A stretch of DNA of 41,850 nucleotides from Bacillota bacterium. Lineage in GTDB: Bacteria; Bacillota; Dehalobacteriia; UBA4068. A program made the position numbers and the translations under genes. This document shows positions 13,937 through 23,056 of the stretch, piece after piece. The notes below the pieces were generated by a model. That model was not told the DNA's origin. It searched no databases and saw nothing but the letters and a program-made list of their open reading frames with translations. The stretch covers positions 1-41,850 of the forward strand of contig JAILCQ010000027.1 in the NCBI GenBank assembly GCA_024679955.1. Direction: 5' to 3'. Numbering within the stretch: the first letter of the stretch is position 1; each line of letters starts with the position of its first letter.

Positions 13937-13966
13937 TTGACACACTGGTTGTTGCCATGCTACAAT
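13937..13966 (+). promoter_or_regulatory. Promoter of the purine operon
   Basis: TTGACA (13937-13942), an 18-nt spacer and TACAAT (13961-13966). The predicted start is near 13973, about 210 nt before the purE start codon. No PurR-box-like palindrome was recognised around it. Confidence 0.8.
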
Positions 13967-13972
13967 ATTATA

Positions 13973-14183
13973 TAGTTTTTTGATTTTTGTCCGAAGGGAA
14001 AGCCGGGAAAAATCTCCTTGCATCCTTTCGGCGTCGAAAGGGGCGTTCGCGTTGAGCTTGCTTGTTGCCAAAGGGATGAAAGCGGCAGGCCTGGCGTTGG
14101 GCGCAGCCTATTTTTAAGGAAAAAGCGATAGGGTGTAGTGTGCAAACGCTGCACCCTGAACTTTTTATCGGGAGGACGAAGGA
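13973..14183 (+). promoter_or_regulatory. Long structured 5' leader of the purine operon, candidate attenuator
   Basis: The leader contains several perfect local helices: GATTTTT with AAAAATC (13982-13988/14008-14014), CCTTTCG-GCGT-CGAAAGG (14024-14041), and a 10-bp hairpin, GGGTGTAGTG with CGCTGCACCC (14131-14140/14147-14156), followed five bases later by T5 (14162-14166). That last hairpin looks like a weak intrinsic terminator placed just before the GGGAGG of purE. GGGCGCAGC at 14099-14107 could pair with GCTGCACCC instead, giving an alternative fold. No known class (guanine, PRPP/ykkC, ZTP, THF) was recognised by its conserved core. Function is inferred only from position and structure. 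Confidence 0.5.
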
Positions 14184-14684
14184 ATGAAAAAAGTAGCCGT
14201 GATCATGGGGAGTTTGAGCGATTTGCCGGCGGTGCGGCCGGGTATCGATTTGCTGCAGCGTTTGTCGATCCCCTTTGAGGCCCATGTGTTTTCCGCCCAT
14301 CGCACGCCGGAGGCGGTCAGCCGTTTTGCCGCCGAAGCGGAACAGGCCGGTTTCGGCGCGATCATCGCCGCCGCCGGTAAGGCCGCGCATCTGGCCGGGG
14401 TGGTGGCCGGACACACCTGTTTGCCGGTGATCGGCATACCGGTCAAATCTTCTACCCTGGACGGTCTGGACGCCTTGCTGGCCACGGTGCAAATGCCTTC
14501 CGGCGTGCCGGTGGCCACGGTGGCCATCGACGGCGCGTATAACGCCGCTTTGCTGGCGGCGCAGATATTGGCCCTGAGCGACGACACGCTGGCGGCCCGT
14601 TTGCGGCAAATGAAGCAGGATATGGCGGCGGAGGTTTTGGCCAAGGATGAAGCATTGCAGCAGCAATTAAGGGAGGATAAATAA
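14184..14684 (+). CDS. purE: PurE, N5-CAIR mutase / AIR carboxylase
   Basis: A 166-aa protein of the PurE family, acting at the carboxylation step AIR to CAIR. It has [10 protein letters not shown] (phosphate loop), the substrate motif SAHRTPE and the C-terminal [14 protein letters not shown]. The usual GAGGAAHLPG loop reads [11 protein letters not shown] here, with Lys in place of Gly. There is no purK next to it. Class I PurE needs PurK to make N5-CAIR; class II uses CO2 directly. The class cannot be settled from reading alone. First gene of the purE-C-F-M-N-L operon; GGGAGG precedes the ATG. Confidence 0.93.
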
Positions 14685-22980: not shown

Positions 22981-23056
22981 GGTGGGGTTAGTTGGGCTCG
23001 AACCAATGACCTCCACGATGTCAACGTGGCGCTCTAACCAACTGAGCTATAACCCC
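22980..23056 (-). tRNA. tRNA-Val (anticodon GAC), CCA encoded
   Basis: The cloverleaf is readable on the - strand: acceptor GGGGTTA with TAACCCC, D arm with AGCTCAGTTGGTTAGAGC, anticodon stem CCACG/CGTGG around loop TTGACAT (anticodon GAC at 23020-23022), and T arm with GGTTCGAGCC. Discriminator A is followed by a genomically encoded CCA. It reads GUC and GUU valine codons. It is a single gene with its own promoter and terminator. Confidence 0.96.

Follow-up and report, generated by a model that had tools for sequence, protein, structure and literature searches.

How is the purine operon that begins with purE controlled in this bacterium, and what is the function of the RNA stretch that precedes its first gene? 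The window, i.e., the whole 41,850-nt stretch of DNA that was analysed, carries on its + strand rsgA and rpe, then purE, purC, purF, purM and purL, as located by a gene scan, with a purN-like frame between purM and purL that was identified by eye reading. The last position of rpe is 13851, and the first of purE is 14184. The features that matter for the question, and the window's sole Rfam match, are as follows:

13937..13966, + strand: promoter-like site TTGACA-18-TG-TACAAT, 11/12 positions
13973..14183, + strand: leader of the purE operon, its transcription start placed from the promoter
13991..14031, + strand: hairpin P1, 15 pairs in two parts
14039..14109, + strand: long irregular hairpin P2, with the upper part P2b (14060-14067 with 14083-14090)
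14052..14117, + strand: 22-codon frame (stop included), TTG start, with GAAAGGGG 8 nt upstream
14111..14115, + strand: U5 after P2 and after a weak 5-pair hairpin (14098-14110)
14129..14158, + strand: T2, a terminator-like hairpin of 13 pairs with a GCAA loop
14162..14166, + strand: U5 tract of T2, three bases (AAC) 3′ of the stem
14170..14175, + strand: purE ribosome site GGGAGG, identical in the congener G001
14184..14684, + strand: purE, the operon's first gene, followed by purC, purF, purM, the purN-like frame and purL
22983..23056, − strand: tRNA gene, the only Rfam match in the window at curated scores

Control by early termination is common in bacteria, and the layout of this locus points in that direction. 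One promoter-like site was found where shuffles led to an expectation of 0.1, and the congener G001 has TTGACA-18-TG-TAAAAT at the equivalent position, there too with the end of rpe upstream. Only 17 nt separate the U tract from the start of purE, which is too short for a promoter, so that any transcript that begins at the promoter (13937-13966), or at one farther upstream, has to cross T2; if T2 terminates at all, then purE is attenuated. Since the promoter precedes T2 and another would not fit after it, attenuation is the most likely function, and the region can, with moderate confidence, be read from its sequence as a leader that controls the purine operon by transcription attenuation. RNA polymerase would start near 13973 and transcribe P1 and P2, T2 with its U5 would end some transcripts near 14166, just 5′ of the purE ribosome site, and the share of transcripts that escape would set the expression of the downstream pur genes. 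Both the activity of T2 as a terminator in the cell and the regulation of the escape from it are inferred.

The leader is real, i.e., a folded RNA between the promoter and purE. Its 211 nt have a folding energy of −79.6 kcal/mol (z −3.25), with 1/200 shuffles equally stable, and a good promoter lies upstream, which bears out the structured leader ahead of purE that had been proposed in a sequence-only reading of this DNA. When T2 was left out, the upstream hairpins were weakly above chance (z −1.52, 11/200 shuffles), and the same part of the congener leader gave z −2.49 (1/200 shuffles).

The distribution of constraint along the leader was judged against the fourfold-site identity between the window genome and G001, which is 53/76 in purE (0.70) and 47/86 in purC, or 0.617 for the two pooled. 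From T2 through the ribosome site (14124-14183) the identity is 57/60 (P 1.5e-6 against the purE value, 2.3e-9 against the pooled one), and at 14124-14158 it is 34/35. P1, with 28/44, is at the neutral level (P 0.86 at 0.70 and 0.46 at 0.617), and P2, with 56/75, gives P 0.23 and 0.013, respectively. With 57/60 in the one part and near-neutral values in P1 and P2, the constraint on the leader sits on T2 and the ribosome site, whereas P1 and P2 are weakly constrained. In G001, three pairs of P1 are changed on both sides, one is broken and one faces a gap; all 8/8 pairs of P2b hold, two with one-sided changes, and the basal part of P2 changes its register. These pair counts come from alignment A2, in which P1 is unshifted, a choice that favours P1; A3 to A5 and A7 were left out of them, and A4, A5 and A7 shift P1 by one base. 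The two-sequence pair-change count for P1 and P2b is weak against shuffles (71/500). The U5 at 14111-14115 is a possible weak first terminator, and the 14098-14110 hairpin that precedes it is lost in G001 (alignment A2).

Three of the 13 pairs of T2 are U-G, the closing pair included. The sequence-only reading had described a last hairpin of 10 bp with two G-U pairs, followed by T5, just 5′ of the purE ribosome site; the hairpin and its position stand, as does the T5 run at 14162-14166, but the pair counts were too low and the run does not adjoin the stem directly, as AAC intervenes. A three-base gap between stem and U tract weakens a terminator. Two features of an attenuator are found here: purE is separated from its promoter by a stable stem with a U tract (three bases away), and that stem is under selection. 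No pair of T2 varies between the window genome and G001. In a by-position test, 14118-14169 was aligned with purE loci of the order, 28 without the congener and 29 with it; the congener reached z 14.5, and G003, which belongs to a second genus (locus L035), was the best of the 28 loci from outside the genus, with a recognisable T2 at the equivalent site before purE (z 4.9, 0/500 shuffles) and a runner-up at z 2.1. Free local alignment of T2 was less clear (L035 4/100 shuffles, L042 10/100). With G003 included, i.e., across three genomes, 3/13 pairs differ on both sides and pairing holds in 97.3% of cells, a statistic that was matched by 15/500 shuffles. As to the covariation that had been named as a check on the earlier reading, compensatory changes are present in T2 among three genomes and, weakly, in P1 between two. 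The remaining leader of G003 is unlike that of the window and does not fold with notable stability (z −1.33). The model R2 was built with G003 included, and its match there is by construction, the by-position test being the independent one; its matches away from purE leaders, in G010, G014, G022, G011, G020, G028 and G030 (E 8.8e-4 to 0.09), are taken for ordinary terminators.

Searches with Rfam at curated cut-offs returned nothing in the whole window except the tRNA, and at E≤10 the leader gave two matches (E 5 and 7.5) that are far below the cut-offs and at chance level. None of the other Rfam 15 families, PRPP, THF and T-box among them, matched the leader at cut-off, and neither the purine (guanine) riboswitch RF00167 nor the ZTP riboswitch RF01750 matched in the window or its genome. 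Curated RNAs, among them the known riboswitches and T-boxes, were ruled out by this search, in agreement with the earlier observation that the leader lacks a recognisable guanine, PRPP, ZTP or THF riboswitch core. That the library can detect such an element was shown by a positive control, the ZTP riboswitch that precedes purE in G005. For 20 of 80 clostridial purE loci, with purE at any operon position, Rfam likewise gave no match at cut-off, and purE without a known RNA class is common among clostridial loci. Searches of the open literature listed no account of such a purE leader.

The distribution of the leader is narrow. While purE was found in 19/20 family genomes and 33/35 order genomes, the whole leader is kept solely in G001, the single congener compared. 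The model R1 for the P2 element, built from the two congeners and run with strict filters in the class and phylum searches, matched 2/43 genomes of the class and 2/398 sampled genomes of the phylum, these being the same two congeners with one match per genome, and its matches in the order's 28 further purE loci were at chance level, with L139 the best (E 0.014). A wider family for the P2 element is unsupported among the genomes sampled, R1 having found just its two source genomes. The leader is, in sum, a genus-restricted attenuator-type leader.

How the choice between termination and read-through might be made was also considered. The sequence-only reading had put forward GGGCGCAGC at 14099-14107 as a mutually exclusive antiterminator, and this segment does pair with the 3′ arm of T2 at 8/9 positions. 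The duplex has −15.4 kcal/mol, compared with −21.4 for the two T2 arms; the best energy against the 3′ arm was reached by 21/300 dinucleotide-shuffled leaders, and in G001 the equivalent site gives −9.7 kcal/mol, with a different site being best. As its energy is at chance level, as it is lost in the congener and as it would have to invade an already transcribed 13-pair stem, this antiterminator is unsupported. A gapless scan of both genomes for conserved alternative helices between 13973-14123 and T2 had its best score matched by 111/300 column shuffles. Folds of growing prefixes showed that a small hairpin, CCUAUU/GAUAGG, occupies the base of the T2 5′ arm as long as the 3′ arm is not yet made, and by eye G001 could form an equivalent one (UCUAUC/GAUAGG); as a switch element this hairpin is weak and is not claimed.

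Other explanations have to be weighed against regulated attenuation. T2 might be a plain, unregulated terminator that trims read-through from rsgA-rpe and holds pur expression at a fixed low level behind a sensorless leader. This would fit with T2 as the sole strongly constrained part and with no conserved alternative pairing above chance, and the neighbouring upstream gene, rpe, has the same orientation, with no terminator found after it. For a pure insulator, however, it would be wasteful to have the promoter upstream of T2, and a 150-nt folded stretch with the three compensatory changes of P1 precedes T2. This explanation is less likely than regulated attenuation. Alternatively, P1 and P2 could bind a purine-pathway metabolite and so decide the formation of T2, i.e., form an orphan riboswitch of two species in one genus. 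The structured leader of a metabolic operon with a terminator at its end, the compensatory changes of P1, the retention of P2b and a congener leader stabler than its shuffles all speak for it, yet conservation usually peaks in the aptamer, and in the two sequences compared P1 (28/44) and P2 (56/75) are near neutral and are not more conserved than their surroundings (57/60). As the element is also confined to one genus and occurs once per genome, an orphan riboswitch is unlikely.

Still less probable is a coupling to translation, in which a ribosome on the 14052-14117 frame would open P2 and decide the formation of T2. The TTG start with its GAAAGGGG, a stop 11 nt before T2 and a frame that is open in both the window genome and G001 would suit such a device, and in the purE leader of G003 (L035 ~2060-2180, − strand) a 34-codon frame, MQHVFQLCWVLPGCFVHGAGRRGAVAVLPAAAGK, follows a strong ribosome site, GGGGAGG, and ends just before the T2 of that leader. 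On the other hand, the 17 aligned codons of the 22-codon frame show 5 nonsynonymous and 3 synonymous changes, against 16 and 45 in purE (Fisher one-sided P 0.05), and the peptide ends differ; there is no run of codons for a single amino acid that could report a purine signal, the start is inside P2, and the frame of G003 shows no sequence relationship to that of the window. The 22-codon frame probably does not encode a functional peptide, although ribosomes may enter it. Regulated attenuation at T2, the purine-operon leader that the sequence-only reading had advanced, fits best with the evidence, given that T2 sits between the promoter and purE, shows the highest conservation in the leader and carries compensatory changes in another genus.

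The purE loci of relatives differ in what precedes the gene. In G005, a ZTP riboswitch stands before purE (L039 2082-2168, − strand; 52.7 bits, cut-off 39), the one case among 20 family genomes; its equivalent place means that purE-leader control does occur in the family. Several family members lack a leader like that of the window, which speaks against attenuation as the common mode: G004 and G015 have short purE leaders, and G007 has no leader gap; there, a GntR/UTRA gene is located directly 5′ of purE (L034 2038-2697, − strand; Pfam UTRA, E 4e-24), and its product is a candidate regulator of the purine operon. PurR (TIGR01743) was above cut-off in 0/20 family genomes, a point in favour of control within the leader, and the weaker matches in 15/20 look like other proteins with a phosphoribosyltransferase domain. 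The purE leaders of the genus g2 share identical sequence blocks (L036 1208-1321, + strand; L038 2161-2275, − strand; L042 2071-2183, − strand). A model, R3, made from the G014 and G002 leaders also matched G018 and G007; the leader frames read SGSQPDIAF (G014, G002) or SWPDIAF (G018), and GYQPAIAF is read in the GntR/UTRA gene of G007. The idea that these blocks are a conserved RNA, perhaps related to the 14098-14110 hairpin, was dropped, the G007 match being inside the GntR/UTRA gene; this match and the SGSQPDIAF reading make coding or decayed coding sequence more likely, and the g2 leader frame may be a remnant of a GntR/UTRA-type regulator. The purE operons of the family are thus seemingly headed by unlike devices, namely a ZTP riboswitch in one genus, an unassigned leader with the conserved terminator in two and a GntR-type regulator gene in another. 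Should T2 be triggered by a metabolite, the leader would represent a new purine sensor; otherwise this would be a small case of rapid turnover in purine-operon control.

Among known systems, trp-type leader-peptide attenuators have a short open frame ahead of the terminator. The window likewise has a short frame before T2, but this frame is without a coding signature or a regulatory codon run. The ZTP (pfl) leader of G005 also precedes purE, at the equivalent position, and is of the terminator type, whereas a ZTP match is absent from the window's genome. PRPP riboswitches (ykkC subtype 2b), as outlined in PMC5912903, occur singly or in tandem with guanine aptamers and act on de novo purine genes via terminator control; purine genes and a terminator are shared with the window, whose leader has no such Rfam match at E≤10. 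The pur operon of B. subtilis is described in PMC3347571 as controlled by a leader terminator. That leader has a guanine riboswitch, whereas the window and its genome have no purine riboswitch match, with PurR below cut-off; the B. subtilis arrangement of promoter, leader and intrinsic terminator just before purE, with early termination of transcription (PMC3347571), is one that the present leader resembles.
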